NCBI RefSeq assembly: GCF_003287285.1
Contig: NZ_QMIG01000004.1
Coordinates: forward strand, 1-64,000
DNA: 64,000 bases
Source of the DNA: Phytoactinopolyspora halophila
Lineage (GTDB): Bacteria > Actinomycetota > Actinomycetes > Jiangellales > Jiangellaceae
Reading direction: 5' to 3'
A model generated the notes under the pieces. The model saw only the letters and a list, made by a program, of their open reading frames with translations. It searched no databases and was not told where the DNA came from. Shown piece by piece: positions 17,020 through 50,007 of this stretch; the first letter of the stretch is position 1, and every line of letters begins with the position of its first letter. The translations under genes were made by a program, and so were the position numbers.

Positions 17020-17820
17020 TCACGGCGTCGCGCGCCGCACGCCGTCAGCGAGCTCTGCGGCCAGGCTCGCGGCCGCGCGCACGCCGCTCGCCGCATCGTC
17101 GGCGTCCATCAGGCGGCGCACGAACGCCGACCCCACGATGACGCCATCGGCGAAGCTGGCGACCTCGGCGGCCTGGTCCCCGCTGGAAACGCCGAGGCCC
17201 ACCGCAATCGGCAGGTCGGTCGTCGCGCGTGTCCGGGTGACCAGCCCCGCAGCGGCGTTTCCTACCTGCCCACGGGTACCGGTCACGCCCATGGTCGAGG
17301 CGGCGTAAACGAACCCCCGGCACTCCCGCGTCGTCAGCGCGATCCGCTCGTCCGTCGACGACGGCGCCACGAGAAAGACGGTGTCGAGCTCGCGGGCCCG
17401 AGCCACCGGCAGCCACTCCTGCGCGTCGTCGGGAATCAGATCCGGGGTGATGGCCCCCGATCCCCCGGCCGACTGGAGATCGCAGGCGAATCGCTCTGCG
17501 CCATACCGGTCGATCGGGTTCCAGTACGACATCACGAGTACTGCCGCACCCGTCGACGCGACGGCCTCGACCGTGCGCAGCACCTCCGGCGTCCGGGTGC
17601 CGCCCCGCAGCGCGGCGTCCACGGCATCCTGGATCACCGGCCCGTCCATGAGTGGGTCGCTGTAGGGAAGGCCCACCTCGACGACGTCGACGCCGGCCTC
17701 GACCATGGCCGTGAGCGCCTGGATCCCGCCGTCGACGGACGGGTAGCCCGCCGGCAGGTAGCCGACCAGGGCCGCACGCCCCTCCGCGTGCGCCTTCGCG
17801 AACGCTGTCGATGTCTTCAC
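17020..17820 (-). CDS. trpA: Tryptophan synthase alpha chain
   Basis: A 266-residue TIM barrel that cleaves indole-3-glycerol phosphate to indole and glyceraldehyde 3-phosphate, passing indole to TrpB. Visible: catalytic Glu in DVVEVGLPYSDPLMDGPVIQ together with the Asp of the same segment, the LLVSYWNP-like MSYWNPIDRYG, and the phosphate-binding glycine loops GLGVSSGDQAAEV and GVIVGSAFV. It starts 15 bp after the trpB stop, so the two are co-transcribed. The 183 bp downstream, before the DsbA-like gene, holds no ORF. Confidence 0.96.
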   Translation of the reverse strand: MKTSTAFAKAHAEGRAALVGYLPAGYPSVDGGIQALTAMVEAGVDVVEVGLPYSDPLMDGPVIQDAVDAALRGGTRTPEVLRTVEAVASTGAAVLVMSYWNPIDRYGAERFACDLQSAGGSGAITPDLIPDDAQEWLPVARARELDTVFLVAPSSTDERIALTTRECRGFVYAASTMGVTGTRGQVGNAAAGLVTRTRATTDLPIAVGLGVSSGDQAAEVASFADGVIVGSAFVRRLMDADDAASGVRAAASLAAELADGVRRATP

Positions 17821-17835
17821 GTCGTCCTCACTTCG

Positions 17836-19083
17836 CTACGTTCCTTCCTGCGCGTCCGGATCGAGCAACCCGAACCACCGCGCTGCGGTGTCGAGATCCT
17901 TGTCCCCGCGCCCGGAAAGATTGACCACGATGACGGCGCCCGGGCCCAGCTTGGCTCCCAGCAGGCGTGCCCCGGCGAGCGCGTGCGCGCTCTCGATCGC
18001 GGGAATGATGCCTTCGGTGCGGCTGAGCAGCTGGAACGCCTCCATCGCGGCGGCGTCGTCCACGGGCTCGTACACCGCGCGGCCACTGTCGTTGAGCCAG
18101 GAATGCTCGGGGCCGACGCCGGGATAGTCCAGACCTGCCGAGATGGAATGCGATTCGATGGTCTGCCCGTGCTCATCCTGCAGCAGGTACGAGCGGGCGC
18201 CGTGCAGCACCCCGGGTGCCCCGGAGGAGATGGTCGAGGCATGCCGGCCGGTCTCGACGCCGTCCCCGCCGGCTTCGAATCCATACAGCCCGACCTCGGT
18301 GTCGTCGATGAAGGCGTGGAAGATGCCGATGGCGTTCGATCCGCCGCCGACGCACGCTGCCACGGCGTCGGGTAGCTTCCCGGTGAGCTCCTGGACCTGC
18401 TGGCGCGCCTCGACACCGATGACGCGCTGCAGGTCGCGGACCAGGGTCGGGAACGGGTGCGGGCCGGCGACCGTGCCGAAGACGTAGTTGGTGGTCTCGA
18501 CGTTGGTCACCCAGTCACGCATGGCCTCGTTGATGGCGTCCTTGAGGGTGCGCGATCCCGTGGAGACCGGGACGACACGCGCGCCGAGCAGCTCCATGCG
18601 GGCGACGTTGAGCGCCTGCCGGCGGGTGTCCTCCTCGCCCATGTAGATCACGCATTCGAGGCCCATGAGCGCGGCCGCCGTCGCCGTGGCGACGCCGTGC
18701 TGGCCGGCCCCGGTCTCCGCGATCACGCGGGTCTTGCCGATCCGCTTGGTCAGCAGTGCCTGGCCGAGCACATTGTTGATCTTGTGTGAGCCGGTGTGGT
18801 TGAGATCCTCGCGCTTGAGCAGGATCCGCGCGCCGGATGCGGCCTCCGCGCTGAAGCGCGTCGCGTCGGTGAGTGGCGTGGGGCGGCCGCTGTACGACTT
18901 CAGCAGGCCGTCGAGCTCGGCCCCGAATGCCGGATCCGCGGCGGCTGCCTGATACTCGCGATCGAGCTCGTCCAGGGCGGCGACCAGTGCCTCGGGTACG
19001 TAGCGGCCCCCATAGGGACCGAACCGACCCGGTCTCTCGGATGGCCGCTCGGGTCGCTCGGTCACCTCGTGCTCCTCGGTCAC
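17836..19083 (-). CDS. trpB: Tryptophan synthase beta chain
   Basis: A 415-residue PLP enzyme that joins indole and serine to make tryptophan. PLP lysine in HTGSHKINN, phosphate loop [12 protein letters not shown]-type region around MGEEDTRRQ, and [15 protein letters not shown]. The start is ambiguous because an 18-bp segment with ribosome site and start (GAGGAGCACGAGGTGACC) is tandemly repeated: GTG 19083 or GTG 19065 are equally placed; I took the outer one. Upstream the expected partner trpC is separated by a divergent ArsR-MFS pair, so trpB needs a promoter in the roughly 180 bp between 19083 and 19262, shared with the ArsR operator region. Confidence 0.95.
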
Positions 19084-19226
19084 CTCGTGCTCCTCGAAGA
19101 TGCGTGCGTCGACACCGGCGGGCGTGCGCCCCTCCCGCTCGTCGCCGGCGCGGCGCGCGCCGACGACGAACCTTGGCCTGACCCTAGCCTGCGCCCGTGC
19201 ACGTCCACCACGCGGGTTTGCGCAAC

Positions 19227-19259
19227 TTGCAAAGACTCGTTTGCAAATATACCTTTGCA
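19227..19259. promoter_or_regulatory. TTGCAAA operator for the ArsR-type regulator
   Basis: Perfect dyad TTGCAAA-N6-TTTGCAA at 19227-19246, plus a third half-site TTTGCA at 19254-19259, immediately before the ATG at 19262. No ribosome site fits between, so the regulator mRNA may be nearly leaderless and the dyad would cover its promoter. An HTH repressor with its own dyad over the promoter is classic autoregulation; binding is inferred. trpB reads away from the same region. Confidence 0.65.
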
Positions 19260-19261
19260 TC

Positions 19262-19894
19262 ATGGACGACACGCCCCAAGGGCCTCCGCTGGACGACGAC
19301 GAGCGCGCGGTGCGCCTGGATGCCCTCTCGGTCCGTGGCTTGGCGCATCCGATCCGCCTCAAGATGCTGGGACTCCTTCGAACCGATGGCCCCGCTACGG
19401 CAACGAGCCTGGCCCGGCAGCTCGGGTTGAACACCGGCGCGACCAGTTACCACCTGCGCCAGCTCGCGGCATACGGGTTCATCGTGGAGGATTCGGGCCG
19501 CGGCACCACGCGGGAGCGGTGGTGGCGCGCCGCTCACCGGTCCACCTACTTCGACCGCAACGCCCTGACCGGCGACGAGACCGGCGAGGCATTCGTCCGG
19601 GCAATCGGGCAGATCTACTCCGAGAAGATCCAGCGAGCCATCGACGAGTACGCCACCCTGCCGCCCGAATGGCGGGACGCCGGCACGCTCAGCGACACCA
19701 TGTTGATGCTGACACCGGACGAGTCCACGCGGCTGGTGTCCGAGCTGTTCGAGGTCATGGCCCGCTACCGGCGGCACGATCCGGACCATCCGTCGCCCGC
19801 CCCTGCCGATGCCACGCCGGTCACCCTCCAGCTCCAGGTGTTTCCGGACGCGAGCAAGCTCGCCGACGCCGAACCGCCCGAGGAGACCGGATGA
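19262..19894 (+). CDS. ArsR-type winged-helix regulator
   Basis: A 210-residue regulator. Residues 20-90 form an ArsR/HTH_20 winged helix: [29 protein letters not shown], then [20 protein letters not shown] and the wing [13 protein letters not shown]. The remainder is a helical domain with a conserved-looking [19 protein letters not shown] and no metal-binding Cys motif, so it is more likely a small-molecule or drug responsive regulator than an arsenic sensor. ATG 19262 is chosen; a frame to 19100 lacks support. The stop overlaps the MFS start (ATGA), so the two genes form one unit that interrupts the trp genes on the opposite strand. Confidence 0.86.
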
Positions 19895-21144
19895 GCGACC
19901 CGGAGGGCGCGGGGCACGCCGGGCGCGAACCGCGCGAACCGCGCGAACCGCGCAGCCTGTACGGCTTGCTGGCCGCGAACATCGTCTCGCTCGCCGGCAC
20001 CCGCCTGTCGATGATCGCGCTGCCCTGGTACGTCATCACCAGCACCGGTGATGCCGTCAACACGGGCCTGGCGGCCTTCGCCCAGATGACGCCATACGTG
20101 CTCGCCAAGGCCCTGGCCGGCCCGGTGGTGGATCGCCTCGGACCCCGGCGGGTCACCATCGTCGCCGAGATTGCCGGCGCGGCGGCGATCGGCCTGATCC
20201 CCGTCCTGCACGCCGCCGACGCGCTGCCATTCGGCACGTTCCTGGTGCTGGTGGCGCTGGTCGGGATGGCCAGCGGTCCGGCCGACGGCGCCAAATCCGC
20301 GATGATCCCGGCAGTCGCCGAGCGGGCCCAGGTACCCCTCGAACGAGTCACCGGGCTGACCGGGACGATCGAGCGGCTCGCCAGCACTATCGGCGCGGCC
20401 GCAGCCGGAAGCGTCGTCGCCTTTCTGGGCGCCGCCCCCGCACTCGCCGTGAACGCCGTGACGTTCGTGTTCGCAGCGGTGATCGTGATGGCCACGGCGC
20501 CGTCCCGGTACGGACCGCATACTCGCGTCGCGGGTGGCTACCTCGGCCAGTTCCGGGAAGGCGCCAGTTTCATCTGGCGCGATCGCCTGCTACGCGCGAT
20601 CTACATGATGACCAGTATCACCAACCTGCTGGATGCGGCCACGTTCTCCGTGCTGCTCCCGGTCTGGGCGCACAGCTCCGGGCGGGGACCCGCGGAGATC
20701 GGCCTGCTGGCGGCGGCGTTCGGCGCCGCTGCGGTAGCGGCGAGCATGCTCGCGGCGGCCATCGGGCACCGCATGCCACGTCGTGCGACGTACCTGGCCA
20801 GTTTCCTGATCGCCGGCGCGCCCCGGTTCATCGTTCTCGTGCTCGACGTGCCGTTGAGCACCATCGTTTCCGTCTACGTCGTTTCGGGCTTCGCCGCGGG
20901 TTTCATCAATCCGATCCTGGGCGCAGTGATCTTCGCGCGGATCCCGGCCGATCTCGTCGGCCGGGTGAGCGCGCTGGGCACGTCCCTCGCCTGGGCCGGC
21001 GTCCCGTTCGGCGGGCTCGCCGGGGGCGCGATCACCGCGGCGGTCGGGCTGTCGCCCGCCTTGATCATCCTGGGCATCGCCTACCTCGTCACCACCATCC
21101 TGCCCGGCTTGCAGCGCAGTTGGCGCGAGATGGACCGCCGGTGA
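19891..21144 (+). CDS. Major facilitator superfamily transporter
   Basis: A 417-residue membrane transporter with about 12 helices. Family features: SLAGTRLSMIALPWYVITSTGDAV, the loop motif GPVVDRLGPRRVTIVAE (MFS motif A) and GMASGPADGAKSAMIPAV, placing it near enterobactin/macrolide-type exporters (MFS_3). The N-terminus has EPREPREPR encoded by three perfect 9-bp repeats. ATGA overlap with the ArsR gene indicates joint translation, so the probable job is efflux of a compound sensed by the regulator; the substrate is not known. It ends 10 bp from the trpC stop (convergent), with no room for a long terminator. Confidence 0.88.
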   Translation: MSDPEGAGHAGREPREPREPRSLYGLLAANIVSLAGTRLSMIALPWYVITSTGDAVNTGLAAFAQMTPYVLAKALAGPVVDRLGPRRVTIVAEIAGAAAIGLIPVLHAADALPFGTFLVLVALVGMASGPADGAKSAMIPAVAERAQVPLERVTGLTGTIERLASTIGAAAAGSVVAFLGAAPALAVNAVTFVFAAVIVMATAPSRYGPHTRVAGGYLGQFREGASFIWRDRLLRAIYMMTSITNLLDAATFSVLLPVWAHSSGRGPAEIGLLAAAFGAAAVAASMLAAAIGHRMPRRATYLASFLIAGAPRFIVLVLDVPLSTIVSVYVVSGFAAGFINPILGAVIFARIPADLVGRVSALGTSLAWAGVPFGGLAGGAITAAVGLSPALIILGIAYLVTTILPGLQRSWREMDRR

Positions 21145-21154
21145 CCGGCGGCTC

Positions 21155-21964
21155 CTACTGCGAACGGTTGTTCAGCGCCGGATGCGCGCCAGCCGCCACG
21201 AGGTCGGCCACCGCACTACGCGGTTCCTTGCCCGTCACCAGGCTCTCGCCAACGAGCACCGCGTCGGCACCGTCCTGGCCCAGTTCGATGACGTCGTGCG
21301 GGCCCCGCACGCCCGACTCGGCGATACGCACGACTCCGTCCGGCACCAGCGAGGCGAGCCGGTGGAACGTCGACGTGTCGACCTCGAGCGTGTTCAGATC
21401 GCGCGCGTTGATGCCGATGATGCGCGCACCCGCGTCGACGGCACGGTGGACCTCGTCCGCGGTATGCGCCTCGACGAGAGTGGTCAGGCCGATCGACTCC
21501 GCCCGCTCGATCAGGCTCACGAGCGCGTTCTGCTCGAGAGCGGCCACGATGAGTAACGCGACGTCGGCGCCGTGCGCGCGCGCCTCCCAGAGCTGGTAAC
21601 TGGTGATGATGAAGTCCTTGCGCAGGATGGGAACATCGACGGCCGCGCGGACCGCGCGAAGATCGTCGAGCGAACCGTTGAAGCGCTGGCCTTCAGTTAG
21701 CACGCTGATAGCGACCGCACCACCGGATTCGTAATCGACGGCGAGTGCCGCGGGATCCGAGATATCCGCCAGGGAACCTTTCGACGGGCTCGACCGTTTT
21801 ACCTCAGCAAGGATCGAGACTCCGGGAGAACGCAACAGTGGCGTCACGTCACGCGCCGGCGGCTGCTTCGACGCCAGCTCCTTCAGATTGCCCAGTGGGA
21901 TCCGTTCCTGGCGCGCGGCAAGATCGGCGCGGACACCGTCGAGGATCTCCTCGAGTACGCTCAC
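21155..21964 (-). CDS. trpC: Indole-3-glycerol phosphate synthase
   Basis: A 269-residue TIM barrel that closes the indole ring from carboxyphenylaminodeoxyribulose phosphate. Motifs: [17 protein letters not shown] (catalytic Lys/Glu), [37 protein letters not shown] and [12 protein letters not shown], and the closing phosphate site [12 protein letters not shown]. The start is GTG 21964 with GGAGAGCAAGC upstream; the long frame to 22237 lacks family similarity. It belongs to the trpE-trpC transcription unit; trpD, trpG and trpF were not found in this window. Confidence 0.96.
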
Positions 21965-22133
21965 GCTTGCTCTCCGCCCTGTGATTGTGTGCATATGACA
22001 ACTAATGTGGGGGGACTCAACCGATCCAGAGTAGCCACGCGTCCTGACGCGTCCTGCCGCGGCCCCCTGTGTGGATCGCGTCGCGCATCGAGCACACGAC
22101 GATTCGGTGGCCAGCGCTGAACGTTCGGTGACT

Positions 22134-22526
22134 TCATGGCACCTCGTCACTCCGCGGCGAGACGGACGAATGCGGGACACGCGGCGGATCCAGCGCGTAT
22201 CCGACACCCCGGACCGCGTGGATTTCCAGCGCTCCACCCAGTTTGGTACGCAACGACGCGATGTGGACGTCGACCGTGCGTGAACCGATCGGGTTCGGGT
22301 AACCCAGTGCCTCGCACATCAGCTCCGTGCGGGTACAAATCCGTCCTGGACGGTGCATCAGGTATCCCAGAACCGCCGCCTGGACCGGGGTCAGCGAGAT
22401 CGAGCGACCCGCCGCCGGCAGCACGGCCGTGCGTCTGGCGACATCGAGCGTGACTCCAGCAACCGAGACCGACGATCCGCCTTCACCAGGTCGGCTCGCC
22501 GCTCGGCCACCGGCGCCGCTACTCAT
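22134..22526 (-). CDS. Stand-alone OmpR-type winged-helix protein within the trp cluster
   Basis: A 130-residue protein with only a Trans_reg_C DNA-binding domain: [75 protein letters not shown] and the wing [11 protein letters not shown]. No receiver domain or other sensor domain is present and none is encoded nearby. It begins 2 bp after the stop of the HGxxPAAW gene and is followed 169 bp later by trpC, so it is probably co-expressed with trp genes. A role as a regulator of this cluster is inference; the absence of a phosphorylation domain means control must come from another signal. Confidence 0.8.
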
Positions 22527-22903: not shown

Positions 22904-23692
22904 TCACGCTGTCGGGTCGTCACCTCGGTCCAACGCATCCCAGACGGCCGCCGAACTGCCGGCCTCACCGTCACCCTCAGTAACCGCCTGCCCGCCGCCG
23001 AGCTGGGCGCGACGATCGGGGTGACTGGCGTGGTCCGCCCGGTCCGCATTACCCGACCCGTCCGCCCGGCCCGCCTGGTCAGTCCGATCCATCCGATCCA
23101 TCTGATCCGTCCGGCCCGCACGTCCAGTACGTCCGGTACGGCCGGTCCGTTCATACCGGCGGCCCATGGCCGGCCAGCGGTGACCGCGCAGCGCCACGAG
23201 CACGCCGGCTGCCACCATCAAGGCCGCACCCGCCGCCGTCGGGACGACCCACCCGGGCGAGGTGGAGAGCGTGTCCACCGGACCGGATCCCTCGCCTCCG
23301 CGCTCGATCCAGCGCGCCGCCCGGCCGTCCACATCGGCGGCGACGACCAGCACGTTGACCAGCAGCACGGACCCCAGCAGCGCGAGCACGGCACCCACGA
23401 TCCGCCGGCCCATCCGCCGCACGGCCGGCACCAGCACGACAGCCGCGAGCCCGACCAGGCACACGGCCGACGCGAGCGGGACGAGATCGCTGCCGGTCAC
23501 CTCGACCGTCGTGCGCATCAACGTCGCCGGAACCTCGGCCGTCGCCCAGGTGCGCGTGGCTCCCCACAGCCCCGTCCCCGAGCCGAGGACGAGCGCGCCG
23601 AGCGTTGCCAGGCACTCCCTGCGGGCCGCTCGCCGATGCCTCGCAGCCAGGTCCGTCACCGCGTTCTCCATCCGGGTCTCACGGGCTCTCAT
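22904..23692 (-). CDS. Tryptophan biosynthesis-associated membrane protein
   Basis: A 262-residue membrane protein of the Trp_oprn_chp type, encoded directly after trpE. About four hydrophobic helices ([76 protein letters not shown]) with the usual WA/W motif after helix 1. The C-terminal tail (about residue 185 on) is a low-complexity Arg/Thr/Gly/Asp region ([22 protein letters not shown]) from short DNA repeats. ATG 23692 overlaps the trpE stop by 14 bp; ATG 23671 is an alternative. Function unknown; transport of a pathway intermediate or tryptophan has been imagined only. Confidence 0.83.
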
Positions 23693-25316
23693 GTTCTCGG
23701 CGTTCGGCGACGGGGCGCATGGCATCGGCGATCGCGACCGCGCGCAACGCCGACGCCGCCTTGTTCCGCGATTCCGTCCACTCGGCCTCGGGGTTGGAAT
23801 CGGCCACCACGCCCGAACCCGCCTGGACGTAGGCGACGCCGTCGCGAATCAGCGCGGTCCGGATGGCGATGGCGACATCGAGGTCGCCGGCGAAGTCCAG
23901 ATACCCGACCACGCCGCCGTACAGGCCGCGCCGGGTGGGTTCGAGCTCGTCGATGATCTCCATGGCGCGCACCTTGGGCGCACCCGACAGCGTGCCCGCC
24001 GGGAAGCACGCCGCGAGCACGTCCAGCGCACTGCGCTCCTCGCCGAGCCGGCCCACCACGGTGGACTCGAGATGCATGACGTGGCTGTAGCGGCGGACCG
24101 ACATGAAGTCGACGACCTCGACCGTGCCCGGAGCGCACACCCGGCCCAGATCGTTACGGGACAGGTCGACAAGCATCAGGTGCTCGGCGCGCTCCTTGGG
24201 ATCGTCGACGAGTTCGGCCGCCAGCGCCGCGTCGGCCTCGGGGGATTCGCCACGCCACCGGGTCCCGGCGATGGGATGCGTCATCACCCGGTCACCCTCC
24301 ACCTTGACCAGGGCCTCGGGGCTGGAACCGACGACGGAGAAGGCGTCGTGCCCGTCGCCGTTCGGCCCGGGAAACCGCAGCAGGTACATGTAAGGGCTCG
24401 GGTTGTCGCGGCGCAGCACCCGATACACGTCCAGCGGATCGGCCTGGGTGGTGGCCTCGAACCGCTGGGACAGCACCACCTGGAAGGCCTCGCCGGCGTA
24501 GATCTCTTCCTTGGCCCGCTCGACGGAGGCCAGGAAATCCTCCTTGCTGGTGCGGCTGTGGTGCTCGGGGACCATCTCCGGCACGTACGGGTTGACCGAC
24601 GACGGCGTGGGTGCGGCCAGCTGCGCGGTCATCCGGTCGAGGCGGGTCACCGCGTCGAACCACGCCTCGTCCACTCTCTCGTCGGAGTCGTCCCAATTCA
24701 CGGCGTTCGCGACCAGTAGCACCGTGCCGTCGTCGTGGTCGACCACGGCGATGTCGGTAGCGAGCAGGAAGGCCATCTCCGGCAGCCGGAGGTCGTCGGC
24801 GGTGCTGGCCGGCAACCGTTCCAGGCGCCGTACCGCGTCGTAGGAGACGAAGCCCACCAGGCCACCGGTCAGCGGCGGCAGGCCAGGCAAGTGGGAAGTC
24901 CGCAGGATCTCGAGGGTGCCGGCGAGGGCTTCCCACGGGTTGCCTCCCGACGGGAGGCCGGTCGGTGGGTTTCCGTGCCAGATCGCGGCGCCGTCGCGCT
25001 CGGTGAGGATCGCCGCTGAATCGGCACCGATGAAGGAGTACCGCGACCACACTCCCCCGTGTTCTGCGGATTCCAGCAGGAAGGTCCCGGGCCGGTTCCC
25101 GGCCAGCTTGCGGTAGATGCCGACCGGGGTTTCGGCGTCGGCCAGCAGGCGGCGCACGACGGGGATCACGCGGCGGTCCCGGGCGAGCTTCCGGAACGTG
25201 TCGATATCGGGCGCGACGTCGAGCCCGATCGGCTGCTCAAACGTCCCATGATCATGAACGCTGGTCGTCTCCGTGTGACGACCAGCGTTCATGATCATGG
25301 GCGTGGGATCGGTCAT
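23679..25316 (-). CDS. trpE: Anthranilate synthase component I, with a palindromic repeat inside its 5' coding region
   Basis: A 545-residue enzyme that makes anthranilate from chorismate with the TrpG glutaminase. The N-terminal domain has the feedback region [19 protein letters not shown]; the chorismate-binding domain shows [46 protein letters not shown] and [18 protein letters not shown] 25316 has GGAGGA upstream and overlaps the hisI stop (ATGA), which fixes the start. Residues 6-24 (from [11 protein letters not shown] to SVHDHG) are encoded by a complete dispersed palindrome (25245-25301), giving an extra N-terminal segment before the normal [18 protein letters not shown]. No Trp-rich leader peptide was seen upstream. 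Confidence 0.94.
25245..25301. repeat. Palindrome family A, copy inside trpE
   Basis: Perfect 25-bp arms (25245-25269 and 25277-25301) around a 7-nt loop. The outer core TGATCATGAAC (25249-25259) / GTTCATGATCA (25287-25297) is shared with the other family members and the distance between the cores is 27 bp. It encodes trpE codons 6-24 in frame. A strong RNA hairpin this close to the start codon could affect trpE translation. Confidence 0.85.
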
Positions 25317-25690
25317 GCCATTCCTCCGGATGGTGTACTCACGGGCTCGATCAAGCCGTCGTCGAAACAGGTCGACGCGCCGGTATGACAGGCCGGCCCC
25401 TCTTGCTCGACCTTCAGCAAGATCGTATCGGCATCGCAGTCCAGCCTGACCTCGCGCACCCACTGCCGGTGACCTGACGTCTCGCCCTTCACCCAGTGCT
25501 CCTGGCGGCTCCGGCTCCAATACGTGGCCCTGCCGGTGCTGAGCGTGCGGTGCAGCGCTTCGTCGTCCATCCACGCGAGCATCAGCACCGAGCCGGTGTC
25601 GTGCTGCTGGACGATAGCCGGAAGCAGGCCATCGGTGGTGCGCCTCAGGCGCTCTGCCAAGGCGGGATCGAGACTGGACATGCCATCCAT
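25313..25690 (-). CDS. hisI: Phosphoribosyl-AMP cyclohydrolase
   Basis: A 125-residue enzyme of histidine biosynthesis (third step: opens the adenine ring of phosphoribosyl-AMP). The family signature is complete: [35 protein letters not shown] and the metal-ligand region [29 protein letters not shown]. There is no fused HisE pyrophosphohydrolase. The start is ATG 25690 or ATG 25681; neither has a strong ribosome site. Its stop overlaps the trpE start (ATGA), linking histidine and tryptophan synthesis in one transcript. Confidence 0.94.
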
Positions 25691-25778
25691 TCTGCCGGAC
25701 ACCGGTGCATCGCTGATGCTCGTGGCCGCTGCGATACGGTTCCTGGGTTGAGATGATGACGTGACCGAGGAGCTATTC

Positions 25779-26291
25779 GTGATACGTAACACTCTGCGTT
25801 CCCGTATCGTCGGTGTCGCAGCACTGGCGGCTGCGGCGCTGATCATGAGCGGTTGCAGTGCTTTCGAGGACCTGATGGGTGACGACAAACCCGACCGTGA
25901 CGAGGAGACCGGCCAGGTCACGGAACAACAGGAAGACATCAGCGTCTTCGACATCGAAGAAGGCGACTGCATCGGCGAGTTCGCCCAGGATTCAGTGGAC
26001 ACGGTCGACCTCTATCCGTGCGACGAAGAACATTTCCAGCAGGTATTCCTCATCACCGAGATCGAACAAGATGAGCTGCCGGGCGACGAGGAACTCGAAG
26101 AACTCGTGATCGACGAGTGCCTGCCCGCGTTCGAAGAGCACGTGGGCGTCGCCTACGAAGAGTCGGAACTGGACGTCAACTATCTCGCCCCGTCACAGGA
26201 CACCTGGGCGGACGGTGACCGCGACATCGTCTGCACCGTCTTCGACCCCGCCGGCACGGTCACCGGCAGCCTCGAAGGCGCCGACCGCTAG
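25779..26291 (+). CDS. Septum-formation family lipoprotein
   Basis: A 170-residue secreted lipoprotein. The signal peptide [26 protein letters not shown] ends in a lipobox with Cys. The mature acidic part contains [30 protein letters not shown] and [14 protein letters not shown], a Cys pattern of the actinobacterial Septum_form domain. GTG 25779 is chosen (GAGGAGC 7-8 bases upstream); GTG 25761 is also in frame. It is divergent from hisI, 88 bp away, and convergent with the ABC exporter. Precise function unknown; the family name comes from a member linked to cell division. Confidence 0.82.
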
Positions 26292-26397: not shown

Positions 26398-28188
26398 TCA
26401 CCGGGACTGGGCGATCCACGCCACGTGCAGCTTCGCGTACACGCCACCAGCCTCGACCAGCTGCACATGTGGGCCCCGCTCGACGAGACGGCCGGCGTCG
26501 AACACGAAAACCTCGTCGGCCGTCTCCGCGGTGGACAGGCGGTGGGCGATGGTGACCGACGTGCGCCCTCGCGACACCCCCTCCAGGGCTCGCGCCAGGC
26601 GCACCTCGGTCGCGGGATCGACCGCACTGGTCGCCTCATCCAGCACCAGAAGATCCGGATCGGCCAGGTAGGCGCGCACCAGCGCCACGAGCTGGCGCTC
26701 ACCGGCGGACAGCGACTCGCCACGCTGGCCCACCGACGCGTCGAGCTCACCGGGTAGGGACTCCGCCCACTCGGCGAGACCCAGCTCGGTGAGGGCCCAC
26801 CACAGGTCGTCGTCGGTGGCATCCGGACGCGCGAAACGCAGGTTCGCCGCGAGCGTGTCGTCGAACAGGAAACCTTCCTGCGGCACCATCACGACGCGCT
26901 GGCGCAGCGAATCGAACCGCACCTCACGCAGGTCAACGCCGTCGAGAACCACCCGCCCCGACACCGGATCCATCAGGCGGGTGAGAAGCTTGGCGAACGT
27001 CGTCTTACCCGAACCCGTCTCCCCGACCACGGCCACCTTCGTACGCGGCAGGATTTCCGCGTTCACGTCGTGAAGCACCCGAGGCCCATCCGGGTAGGCG
27101 TACGAAACAGCCTCGAACCGGACATCGACGGGCCCGTGGGGCAGCGTCGTGCCGGCGTCGCCGGGGTCTGCGACGTCGGCGGGCGTGTCCAGTACCCCGA
27201 GCACGCGCCGCCAGCCGGCGATCGCGTTCTGCGCCTCGCTCAGCACCTCCGTACCAACCTGGATGGGGGCGACGAAGAGGGTGACGAGGAAAATGAACGC
27301 CAGGAGCCGTCCCAGGGTGATGTCGCCGGCGATACCGAGTCCCACGCCGGCGAGCACCACGGCGGCGTTGGCGATCCCGGCGAACACTTCCCCGGTGGAG
27401 AACGTGAACGCGGCCAGGCGATGTGCCCGGGTGGCGGCGCTGCGATGCGCCTCGACCGCCTCGTCGATCCGCTGCTGCGTCCGGCCCTCGATCGCGTACG
27501 CGCGGACGGTCTGCGCACCCACGATCGACTCGGAAACGGCGCCCAGCATCGCGCCGACCCGCTCGCGCACCACCATGAACGCCGCGGACAGCATGCGCTG
27601 GAACCAGCGCAGGGCGACGAAGAACGGGAGGAAGCACAGCCACACCAGGAGCGTGAGCTGCCACGAATAGATCGCCATGATCACCGTGGCGATGATCAAC
27701 TGGCCGATATTCACCAGCAGGAACAAGCCACCGAACTGCACGAACTGCGAGATCGTGTCGACGTCGGTGGTAACGCGCGCCACGAGCCCTCCGCGGCGCT
27801 CGGTGTTCTGGGTGAGTACCGACAGGTCGTGGACGTGCCGGAACGCCTTGGTGCGCAAGGTGGCCAGACCCGCCTCGCTGGCCCGGAAGAGCCTCCGGTT
27901 CATGAGGTAGGTGGCACCGATGGTGATCACGATTCCGCACCCCGCCACCACGGCCATCCACCGGACGAACTCCAGGTCCGCCCCGCCGGGCGCGTTCAAA
28001 CCGCGATCGATCGTCTGCTGCACCGCGATCGGGACGATGACCCGGCCCGCCGTGGCGACCATGGCGATGACGAGCGTCAGCGGCAGGCCCTGCTTCATCT
28101 CGGGAGACAGGGCGAGGCCCCGTGCGATGGTGCGCAGCGCGCCGTCGGACCTCTTCTCCCCGAGCCGGGAGGATGCCACGCTCACCAC
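26398..28188 (-). CDS. ABC exporter subunit with intact ATPase site (half-transporter 1)
   Basis: A 596-residue fused membrane-ATPase protein. The transmembrane domain (about 1-320) carries LPLTLVIAMVATAGRVIVPI, LFLLVNIGQLIIATVIMAIY and LTLGRLLAFIFLVTLFVAP-like helices. The ATPase domain has Walker A GETGSGKTTFAK, signature LSAGERQ, Walker B LLVLDEATSAVD with catalytic Glu, and H-loop TIAHRLST. LSAGE instead of LSGGQ is a mild deviation. GTG 28188 (or GTG 28185) follows GGAGG. It pairs with the upstream exporter gene, which has a degenerate ATPase site, so the two should form an asymmetric heterodimer. They sit inside the histidine/tryptophan region; the exported substrate is unknown. Confidence 0.9.
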   Translation of the reverse strand: MVSVASSRLGEKRSDGALRTIARGLALSPEMKQGLPLTLVIAMVATAGRVIVPIAVQQTIDRGLNAPGGADLEFVRWMAVVAGCGIVITIGATYLMNRRLFRASEAGLATLRTKAFRHVHDLSVLTQNTERRGGLVARVTTDVDTISQFVQFGGLFLLVNIGQLIIATVIMAIYSWQLTLLVWLCFLPFFVALRWFQRMLSAAFMVVRERVGAMLGAVSESIVGAQTVRAYAIEGRTQQRIDEAVEAHRSAATRAHRLAAFTFSTGEVFAGIANAAVVLAGVGLGIAGDITLGRLLAFIFLVTLFVAPIQVGTEVLSEAQNAIAGWRRVLGVLDTPADVADPGDAGTTLPHGPVDVRFEAVSYAYPDGPRVLHDVNAEILPRTKVAVVGETGSGKTTFAKLLTRLMDPVSGRVVLDGVDLREVRFDSLRQRVVMVPQEGFLFDDTLAANLRFARPDATDDDLWWALTELGLAEWAESLPGELDASVGQRGESLSAGERQLVALVRAYLADPDLLVLDEATSAVDPATEVRLARALEGVSRGRTSVTIAHRLSTAETADEVFVFDAGRLVERGPHVQLVEAGGVYAKLHVAWIAQSR

Positions 28189-28197
28189 CCACCTCCA

Positions 28198-28246
28198 TGA
28201 TCATGAACGCGAGTCGATCTGTGAGGGCGATTTACGTTCATGATCA
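28198..28246. repeat. Palindrome family A, copy between the two ABC exporter genes
   Basis: Left arm TGATCATGAACG (28198-28209), right arm CGTTCATGATCA (28235-28246); 27 bp between the TGATCATGAAC cores, with an unrelated centre that pairs poorly. It is in a 70-bp spacer within an apparent operon, so it is not simply an end-of-operon terminator. Confidence 0.85.
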
Positions 28247-28258
28247 GCGGAACGGGGG

Positions 28259-31301: not shown

Positions 31302-31316
31302 ACCTTCACCTTCCCA

Positions 31317-31366
31317 TGATCATGAACACGTACCCCATCACAGAGGCCGGCTAGTGTTCATGATCA
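31317..31366. repeat. Palindrome family A, copy between hisA and hisF
   Basis: TGATCATGAACAC (31317-31329) pairs with GTGTTCATGATCA (31354-31366); 28 bp between the cores. The hisA stop codon TAG (31351-31353) and its last five codons (ADHEH) come from the right arm and its flank. It fills nearly the entire spacer of these co-directional genes. Confidence 0.87.
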
Positions 31367-32127
31367 GCGGGTTGAGGGGGCGGGGTGTGGGCCGTGGGGT
31401 GGCCGGCGACGTTCAGCGCCTGTTCGAGGGTGAACGCGCCCGAGTACAGCGCCTTGCCCACGATCGCGCCCTCCACGCCGTCGTCGACGAGCGTGCGCAG
31501 CGCGGCGAGGTCGTCGAGCGTCGACACGCCACCGCTGGCGACGACGGGACGATCGGTCCGCTCGCACACGGATCGCAACAGCTCGACATTCGGTCCACGC
31601 AGCGTCCCATCCTTGGTGACGTCGGTGACGACGTAGCGCGCGCAGCCATCCGCGTCGAGCCTCTCCAGGACGTTCCACAGCTCGCCACCCTCCCGGGTCC
31701 AGCCCCGGGCCGCCAACGTGGTCCCACGAACGTCCAGCCCGACGGCGATGCGCTCGCCGTGGTTCGCGATCACCCGCGCCGTCCAGTCCGGGTCCTCCAG
31801 CGCGGCGGTACCGAGATTCACCCGCGCGCACCCCGTCTTCAGCGCATGCTCGAGGGACTCGTCGTCGCGGATGCCGCCGGAAAGTTCGACATGCACGTCG
31901 AGGCGGCCCACGACCTCCGCGAGCAGCGCGCGATTGGAGCCGCGACCGAAAGCCGCGTCGAGATCCACGAGGTGAATCCACTCCGCTCCGGCCTCCTGCC
32001 ACGCCAGCGCCGCCTCCAGCGGGGAGCCGTACGACGTCTCCGTGCCCGCCTCGCCGCGTACCAGGCGTACCGCCTGGCCGTCGGCGACATCGACCGCGGG
32101 CAGCAAGACCAGCCGTCCCTCGCTCAT
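31351..32127 (-). CDS. priA: Phosphoribosyl isomerase A (HisA/PriA)
   Basis: A 258-residue TIM barrel. Start [20 protein letters not shown] with the catalytic Asp, later [18 protein letters not shown] and [17 protein letters not shown] with the second catalytic Asp, and phosphate loops ELSGGIRDD and [13 protein letters not shown]. In actinobacteria without trpF this enzyme isomerises both ProFAR (histidine) and PRA (tryptophan); no trpF is in this window, and RGWT is the PriA loop region, so dual function is likely. ATG 32127. The C-terminal tail PADHEH is encoded by a family A palindrome that also provides the stop. Confidence 0.93.
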
Positions 32128-42594: not shown

Positions 42595-42655
42595 GGGCAG
42601 GCTCCTTACTCGATCGGCCGGAGAGGGACATGTCGCAGCCTAGCCACCCCTCCCA

Positions 42656-42705
42656 TGATCATGAACGCCTGTGTACCCCATATGGACACATAGTGTTCAT
42701 GATCA
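42656..42705. repeat. Palindrome family A, copy between the esterase and mannosidase genes
   Basis: TGATCATGAAC (42656-42666) and GTTCATGATCA (42695-42705), cores 28 bp apart. The centre contains TGTGT/ACACA pairs. This is a divergent promoter region, so termination cannot be its only role here. Confidence 0.86.
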
Positions 42706-42766
42706 GCGGACAGGGTGGGGGTAGCGTGTATGTCAGGACATCTTCACCACCCCACGACCGGAGGAC

Positions 42767-48932: not shown

Positions 48933-49955
48933 ATGACCGACCGGGCGACCGATGTGCTCGACCGCCCCGAACCGCCACCCGCCCCTACCCTGCGAGAGCG
49001 GGCCCGGCGTATCGTCGGCTCCACGCACTTCCAGCGCGTGATCATCTCGCTGATCGTCGTCAATGCGGCCGTGCTCGGCCTGGAGACCTACGAGACGATC
49101 ACGTCGAACTGGGGATGGTTGCTCGTCCCGCTCAACCGCACCATCGTGGCGATCTTCGTGGTGGAGATCGCCCTGCGGATCTACGTCGATCGGCTCGCGT
49201 TCTTTCGCTCCGCGTGGGGCCTGTTCGACCTGCTCGTCGTGCTGGTCGCGCTGGTACCGGCCACCGGCGAGGCGGCCGTGCTGCGGGTGTTGCGGGTGCT
49301 TCGCATCCTGCGGCTGCTGTCCACAGTGCGGTCCATGCGCCGCGTGGTCGGCGCCCTCATCACCGCTATTCCCGGGATCGCCTCGATCGGCGCCCTGCTG
49401 GCCATCCTTTACTACGTCGGCATCGTGATGGCAACGAACCTGTTCGGCGAGATGGCACCGGAGCACTTCGGCAGCCTCGGCCAGTCCGCCGCGTCGATGT
49501 TCCGGATCATGACCGGCGACGGAGGTCTCGGCGACATCGCCGAACCCGTCGCCCGGCAGCAGCCCGCGGCGTGGTTGTTCTTCCTGATCTTCGTGGTGAC
49601 CACCACGTTCGTGGTGCTCAACCTGTTCATCGCGGTCACGGTCGAAGCCCTGGAACACCAGCGGGACAACGCGCACGACACCCCTGAGCCGGGTGCGGTG
49701 GGTGGCGCCGAAGGTCCGGACGGCCCGGATCGCCCGGACAGCCCGCATGGCCTACATAGCCCACACAGCCCGCGCAGCCCAGACGGCCCCCGCAGCCCGG
49801 ACGGCCCGCTCGGTCGGGACACCCGCGCCCGGGACGACGAGCTCCTCCAGGCGATCACCGCCCTGCAGGAACAGGTGACGGCACTGGAACGACGCCTGGA
49901 CCAGCCCCGCCACTCCCCCTCCCGTGATCATGGTTCCGGTGATCATGAACACTAG
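48933..49955 (+). CDS. Single-domain voltage-gated ion channel (BacNav-like) with atypical selectivity filter
   Basis: A 340-residue six-helix channel subunit. S1 (QRVIISLIVVNAAVLGLETY), S2/S3 with FVVEIALRIYVDRLAFFRSAWGLFDLLVVLVAL, S4 voltage sensor RVLRVLRILRLLSTVRSMRRVV, S5, a pore loop, and S6 FLIFVVTTTFVVLNLFIAVTV. At the filter, the pore helix SMFRIMT is followed by GDGGLGDIAEPV, where BacNav channels carry LESWxS; the conserved Glu and Trp are replaced by Asp and Gly. The C-tail has a Pro/Asp/Ser repeat linker and a coiled coil (DELLQAITALQEQVTALERRLDQ) that would hold the tetramer. Stop codon and the last residues (HGSGDHEH) come from palindrome family A. Confidence 0.87.
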   Translation: MTDRATDVLDRPEPPPAPTLRERARRIVGSTHFQRVIISLIVVNAAVLGLETYETITSNWGWLLVPLNRTIVAIFVVEIALRIYVDRLAFFRSAWGLFDLLVVLVALVPATGEAAVLRVLRVLRILRLLSTVRSMRRVVGALITAIPGIASIGALLAILYYVGIVMATNLFGEMAPEHFGSLGQSAASMFRIMTGDGGLGDIAEPVARQQPAAWLFFLIFVVTTTFVVLNLFIAVTVEALEHQRDNAHDTPEPGAVGGAEGPDGPDRPDSPHGLHSPHSPRSPDGPRSPDGPLGRDTRARDDELLQAITALQEQVTALERRLDQPRHSPSRDHGSGDHEH

Positions 49956-50007
49956 GCGGCTACATGGAACGCTTAGTGTTCATGATCACCGGAACCATGA
50001 TCACGGG
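49921..50007. repeat. Palindrome family A, extended copy between convergent genes
   Basis: Perfect 34-bp arms (49921-49954 and 49974-50007) around a 19-nt loop. Each arm has the family core (TGATCATGAAC 49940-49950; GTTCATGATCA 49978-49988; 27 bp apart) plus a second TGATCATGG motif outside. It contains the TAG of the channel gene and the TGA of the SMP-30 gene, so it likely works as a two-way terminator here. Confidence 0.9.

Follow-up and report, generated by a model that had tools for sequence, protein, structure and literature searches.

To our knowledge, the control of tryptophan genes in actinobacteria has been little studied outside a few models. GlnR, a protein with a receiver and a DNA-binding domain (DBD), serves nitrogen control in actinomycetes. 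Four loop substitutions in PhoB (W184R, G185R, V190M, and D192G) are reported to abolish activation (PMC3973317). RitR is a response regulator turned Cys-based redox sensor that kept a receiver-like domain and has its sensor Cys in the linker (PMC5965902). TrpM/TrpX (SCO2038) of Streptomyces coelicolor is a small trp-cluster gene affecting tryptophan synthesis; it is reported to have no similarity to proteins of known function and to lie in trpCXBA between trpC and trpB (PMC5036795). The open-access titles and abstract openings that we searched described neither a trp-cluster two-component system nor a trp cluster with a lone DBD, and either may exist in print.

A lone winged-helix gene in the trp cluster

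We analyzed a 64,000-nucleotide stretch of Phytoactinopolyspora halophila DNA (the window). Its trp cluster runs on the minus strand, in the order hisI (ORF 25313..26002, true start further in), trpE (23679..25316), a gene for a Trp_oprn_chp (TIGR02234-like) membrane protein (22904..23725, start approximate), a gene for a small HGxxPAAW family protein (NF041681, 22529..22789), the lone DBD gene (22134..22526), trpC for indole-3-glycerol phosphate synthase (IGPS; 21155..21964, coding start about 21964), trpB (ORF 17836..19434, true start further in), and trpA (17020..17820, assigned by profile matches). The membrane protein matched PF09534 above the cut-off and TIGR02234 below its cut-off. Genes for an ArsR-type regulator and an MFS efflux transporter (19100-21144, plus strand) separate trpC from trpB on the opposite strand. 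The distance between trpC and trpB is also about 3 kb in four relatives (L039, L042, L043, and L046).

The lone gene has an ATG start and encodes 130 amino acids. Pfam placed Trans_reg_C (PF00486) at aa 40-112 (E = 5.3e-18, 65.3 bits against a cut-off of 26.2), and no Response_reg match was obtained at E 0.01. The stop codon of the HGxxPAAW gene, directly 5' of the lone gene, ends 2 bp before the lone-gene ATG, leaving no space upstream for a receiver. This distance stays at 2-3 bp across the 20 Jiangellaceae loci examined, which ruled out a receiver masked by a frame shift or a wrong start. The preliminary description of a 130-aa protein with Trans_reg_C alone and no receiver domain, encoded between the HGxxPAAW gene and trpC, was thus confirmed. 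The HGxxPAAW gene and the lone gene appear to be translationally coupled.

The 3D structure of the lone protein was modeled using AlphaFold2. Winged-helix elements were predicted at aa 19-113, with block means of 86-93 over aa 21-110; the pLDDT was below 50 for residues 1-16 and averaged 80 over the whole chain. The predicted fold has the N-terminal sheet, recognition helix, and wing of an OmpR/PhoB winged-helix domain. Foldseek searches with the model returned the domains of SaeR, GlnR, PhoP, and PhoB (1gxp, 2pmu, and 4ixa among the matches). By sequence, the nearest solved structures were 8hig and 8hih, followed by others including MtrA and BasR.

The preliminary description had also reported that no Trp-leader attenuator precedes trpE, and this held as far as tested. 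In the window, the hisI stop and the trpE start share the sequence ATGA, which leaves no leader space, and no Rfam family reached its gathering score there. On these grounds, a trp leader/attenuator or a T-box before trpE was rejected as far as tested. The hisI–trpE junction had been proposed, together with the trpC upstream region, as a place to test for binding of the lone protein. The same 4-bp overlap was found in 10 of 12 named relatives by a nearest-start rule, so neither the window nor these 10 has intergenic space there; the gaps in the other two were 67 and 76 bp, and a 13th relative (L039) had no hisI/trpE match.

A separate observation concerns a short inverted-repeat element with the core ATGATCATGAAC, present in about six copies in the window (25245-25301, near 68, 28188-28247, 31316-31367, 42655-42706, and 49939-49989). 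Its arms gave 11 matches with at most one mismatch, against 0.16 expected in the window. The trpE copy has perfect 25-nt arms and forms part of the 5' coding sequence of the gene, where it is translated in frame. The TrpE starts of relatives that we examined had no such stretch.

Conservation and selection in Jiangellaceae

Orthologs of the lone gene were found in 20 of 22 Jiangellaceae genomes (E 1e-20 or better); one genome (G012) had a weaker second match as well. The nearest named relatives were from Jiangella, Phytoactinopolyspora, and Haloactinopolyspora. The order HGxxPAAW–lone DBD–trpC was observed in 19/19 family loci besides the window, thus in 20/20 in all. The 13 named loci, which largely overlap these 19 in genomes, all contained the HGxxPAAW gene, the lone gene, and trpC, with no receiver or kinase match. 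Conservation beside the trp genes in relatives had been put forward as a check, and the slot was kept wherever the gene was present. Its conservation in the trp context supports the earlier suggestion of a trp-linked regulator.

The two genomes without the lone gene (G002 and G003) are 1.7-2.3 Mb in size and 75-81% complete. Neither trpC nor trpB gave a match at 1e-10 in them; the trpB search was positive in a control genome (G004), and the trpC search had no control. Because of the incompleteness of these genomes, the joint absence of the lone gene and trpC/trpB is weak evidence.

The median dN/dS of the lone gene was 0.22 for 45 Jiangella pairs, 0.21 for 10 Phytoactinopolyspora pairs, and 0.23 and 0.34 for two single pairs. 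It was lower than that of the HGxxPAAW gene in three groups and higher in one, and exceeded those of trpC and trpE in all four. The lone gene is under purifying selection, with a median dN/dS of about 0.2. These values and the common start in 20/20 loci ruled out a chance ORF. Across 17 family members, 36 columns were invariant. As the gene is still under selection, its product is probably a working local switch.

Relatives carry a full two-component system in the same slot

Outside Jiangellaceae, 67 loci (mostly from actinobacterial MAGs) were picked by similarity to the lone DBD among the matches listed, so the counts show where kin of the lone DBD lie and not how frequent the system is. A trp gene (trpE/trpC/trpB) was present in 65 of these 67 loci, a receiver in 66, and a kinase in 64; 61 had all three. 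The usual order was hisI-trpE-[Trp_oprn_chp]-HGxxPAAW-RR-HK-[DUF2752]-trpC-trpB-trpA, where RR is a response regulator and HK a sensor kinase. Pfam scans of trp-slot proteins found Response_reg and Trans_reg_C in three regulators, HAMP, HisKA, and HATPase_c in two kinases, and DUF2752 in one protein. As relatives hold a full response regulator and a sensor kinase in the same slot, the lone gene looks like a reduced two-component system.

Other ORFs were seen near this slot. Most of the loci L051-L117 have an ORF of ~135-230 aa between the kinase gene and trpC, and the one scanned (L051) contained DUF2752. The Jiangellaceae gap before trpC is too short for such an ORF. In one Nanopelagicales locus (L079), the kinase gene and trpC are separated by a 558-aa ORF (8685 to about 10360) whose start resembles a secretion signal. 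Another locus (L163) has a Pro-rich ORF between the HGxxPAAW and DUF2752 genes, with no DBD recognized by eye.

We surveyed 138 genomes of the class with a full-length regulator as the query, using matches at 1e-70 only. Regulators scoring at least 326 bits were found in 23 genomes, and the next value down was 270 bits. In 13 of the 23, spanning 10 family codes, trpC lay within 5 kb of the regulator gene. One further regulator (in G027) adjoins trpE, with trpC on another contig, and the other nine are away from trpC. With 10 of 23 not within 5 kb of trpC, counting the one beside trpE, this type of regulator is not bound to trp genes everywhere. Around seven of the nine (L156-L162, 12 kb each), trp queries gave no match. 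The regulators in these seven loci are closely related to the trp type and have a kinase alongside. The trp clusters of G050 and G125 had neither a regulator nor a kinase match, and complete loss of the system therefore also seems to occur.

Among the 12 family genomes in the sample, the same search matched four at 239-243 bits and none of the other eight at 1e-70; for comparison, the trp-type regulators and their close kin scored 326-410 bits. A search of seven Jiangellaceae genomes for a kinase ortholog elsewhere was negative: the best scores, 103-136 bits, were of generic level, against 369 bits in G022 and 934 bits in G025, the query's own genome. The lone protein has no receiver with a phospho-acceptor Asp, and no cognate kinase was seen in the 13 named loci or in these seven genomes. 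A second lone form outside Jiangellaceae was not seen in 393 genomes, where the listed matches of E 1e-30 or better had open frames of at least 190 aa, frame length being a crude test.

A DBD tree was built from 113 columns and 83 of 123 rows, with many forks poorly resolved. The rows left out were L038-L050 (named copies) and L094 (cut by the contig), and L056-L117 were thinned to every third. The 20 lone proteins formed one clade (100/99). A set of 53 rows, made of the 20 lone proteins, 30 trp regulators, and three others, was separated from 30 other OmpR DBDs (100/97). Twelve other DBDs of the window's genome were in the tree and fell outside the trp set, and recruitment from another OmpR group of that genome was rejected. 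The AU test did not reject a tree in which the full regulators together form a clade separate from the lone proteins (p = 0.218), so the lone proteins may either be nested among the full regulators or lie beside them. These sequence relations indicate that the lone protein very probably derived from a trp-cluster response regulator. The full form would be ancestral, since outside Jiangellaceae the trp-cluster kin in this slot have a receiver and are accompanied by a kinase.

Most predicted DNA contacts are kept and the activation loop is changed

The lone proteins were compared with 65 full regulators, all distinct; five loci without a clean start or stop, and L094, L055, and L093, were left out. 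Both groups retain R83, T84, D86, V87, H88, A90, R93, and K95 in the recognition helix, and R106, G107, G109, and Y110 in the wing. Recognition-helix Q91 is replaced by T, S, or A in the lone proteins. The activation-loop Trp of the VWGY motif was present in 65/65 regulators and in 0/20 lone proteins, which thus do not have this mark of a PhoB-like class II activator. From the VWG motif, we take this Trp to be the equivalent of PhoB W184. The alignment pairs the same loop position of the lone proteins with VWGY of GlnR. Helix 1 changed from TEFD in the regulators to mostly L-Q-A-A. Cys64 occurs in 20/20 and Cys71 in 17/20 lone proteins, where the regulators mostly have F/Y and S, respectively.

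These comparisons suggest that DNA recognition is largely preserved and that RNA polymerase may no longer be contacted in the usual way. With most predicted DNA contacts kept and the activation-loop Trp lost, analogy with PhoB tentatively favors a repressor or another contact mode over a PhoB-like activator.

A decaying remnant, kept for spacing or translational coupling and with no role in DNA binding, would agree with the loss of the kinase and receiver and with the G050 and G125 trp clusters that have neither a regulator nor a kinase match. It is hard to reconcile with median dN/dS values of 0.21-0.23 in three of the four groups, the 36 invariant columns, the mostly unaltered recognition helix and wing, and the confident predicted fold, and we consider it very improbable. 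A DNA-binding role of the lone protein is likely.

A conserved element upstream of trpC

The lone gene and trpC are separated by a 169-bp intergenic region (21965..22133, minus strand), a candidate operator/promoter region. It contains a GGGGG box followed by a -10-like sequence, GGGGG-N29-TACTCTGG (22026..22067, minus strand). The form GGGGG-N26-30-TANNCTGG was found between the lone gene and trpC in 20/20 family loci, and the remainder of the intergenic region aligned poorly across genera. In a 15-kb part of the window and in 13 relatives (8-14 kb each), the element was the only site on either strand in 14/14 stretches. Base-shuffled intergenic sequences gave 0-5 element matches per 2000; the shuffles and the block table used 10 of the 20 family loci.

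Across the 5.04-Mb genome, GGGGG-N26-30-TANTCTGG had a single match. As this strict element gave only the trpC site, no regulon can be proposed. None of the 71 regions examined upstream of trpC in relatives contained the element, and the strict element was absent from the whole of those 71 loci. Of these regions, 70 were distinct, L081 being identical to L168, and a receiver match was present in 68 of the loci. The element is thus specific to the family, and its association with the lone DBD is confounded with descent.

If TANNCT is the -10 sequence, transcription would start about 40-45 bp downstream of the GGGGG box. No conserved -35-like hexamer was recognized by eye at the usual spacing, which makes an extra factor at the trpC promoter plausible. 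We read the element as a putative regulator-dependent trpC promoter. Judged by its position, this candidate element would be bound by the lone DBD.

The element might instead be an ordinary trpC promoter, served by RNA polymerase and some other regulator independently of the lone DBD. By eye, it contains no direct repeat of the OmpR-family type conserved family-wide, which is in line with such a promoter; in the window sequence, a 10-bp unit occurs twice. The missing -35-like hexamer points the other way, as it leaves room for an extra factor and the neighboring gene encodes a candidate. An independent promoter is a real possibility, clearly below an even chance.

Action elsewhere is another alternative, in which the lone protein has the same origin and serves a distant regulon or binds jointly with another OmpR regulator, its trp position being merely inherited. 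Close kin of the regulator also lie away from trpC and trpE in 9 of the 23 high-scoring genomes, and a shift in role is suggested by the differences in helix 1 and the activation loop. On the other side, the slot is kept in the 20/20 family genomes with the gene even though trpC–trpB spacing varies, and a conserved promoter-like element adjoins the lone gene. We regard action elsewhere as improbable.

A proposed local regulator between the two halves of the cluster

Taken together, a reduced, phosphorylation-free local regulator that came from a trp-cluster response regulator and acts at the trpC promoter is a reasonably likely reading of these sequences. Its parts differ in strength, and the trpC promoter as the main target falls somewhat short of an even chance. 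In this model, the kinase and receiver would have been lost in Jiangellaceae, with the DBD retained as a separate small protein that would bind DNA without phosphorylation. The trpE side would be co-transcribed through the lone gene. Because the lone gene follows trpE, the Trp_oprn_chp gene, and the HGxxPAAW gene, and starts 2-3 bp past the HGxxPAAW stop, the amount of its product would track how strongly the first half of the cluster, hisI-trpE-HGxxPAAW, is transcribed. The conserved region that directly follows the lone gene would then serve as the binding site of the lone protein. Expression of trpC and the following genes would thereby be coupled to trpE, and the two halves of the cluster would be joined. 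More tentatively, the trp-cluster two-component system of actinomycetes may have become, in Jiangellaceae, a one-protein circuit in which the lone DBD, translated along with the first half of the cluster, controls the trpC promoter through its level alone or through new sensing, for example by the gained cysteines.

If this holds, tryptophan synthesis in many actinomycetes would be controlled by a two-component system of its own, so far undescribed and encoded inside the trp cluster. The sensor kinase/regulator pair in the trp cluster of several families and the bare yet preserved DBD in one form a natural experiment for learning what the kinase and the receiver add. They make the control of trp genes directly testable in named strains of Jiangella and Phytoactinopolyspora.

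Comparison with known systems

The DBDs of PhoB, PhoP, and SaeR share the winged-helix fold with the lone protein, whereas their full proteins carry a receiver. The PhoB loop residue W184 (PMC3973317) is replaced in the lone proteins. Among solved DBDs, that of GlnR of actinomycetes (PDB 8hig, 8hih, and 8hml) has the most similar sequence (E = 1.2e-14) and one of the best-matching folds. The likeness to RitR is that of a regulator outside phosphorylation control; the lone proteins gained Cys64 and Cys71, for which a redox role would be speculative. TrpM/TrpX and the lone gene are both small extra genes of a trp cluster, and TrpM/TrpX differs in lying between trpC and trpB. The trp-cluster RR/HK pair of other actinomycetes, for which we found no name, occupies the same slot and has the closest DBDs. 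It shares the recognition-helix and wing residues with the lone protein except Q91, and differs in having a receiver, a kinase, and the VWGY Trp (65/65 regulators) and in lacking the GGGGG/-10 element ahead of trpC (71 loci).
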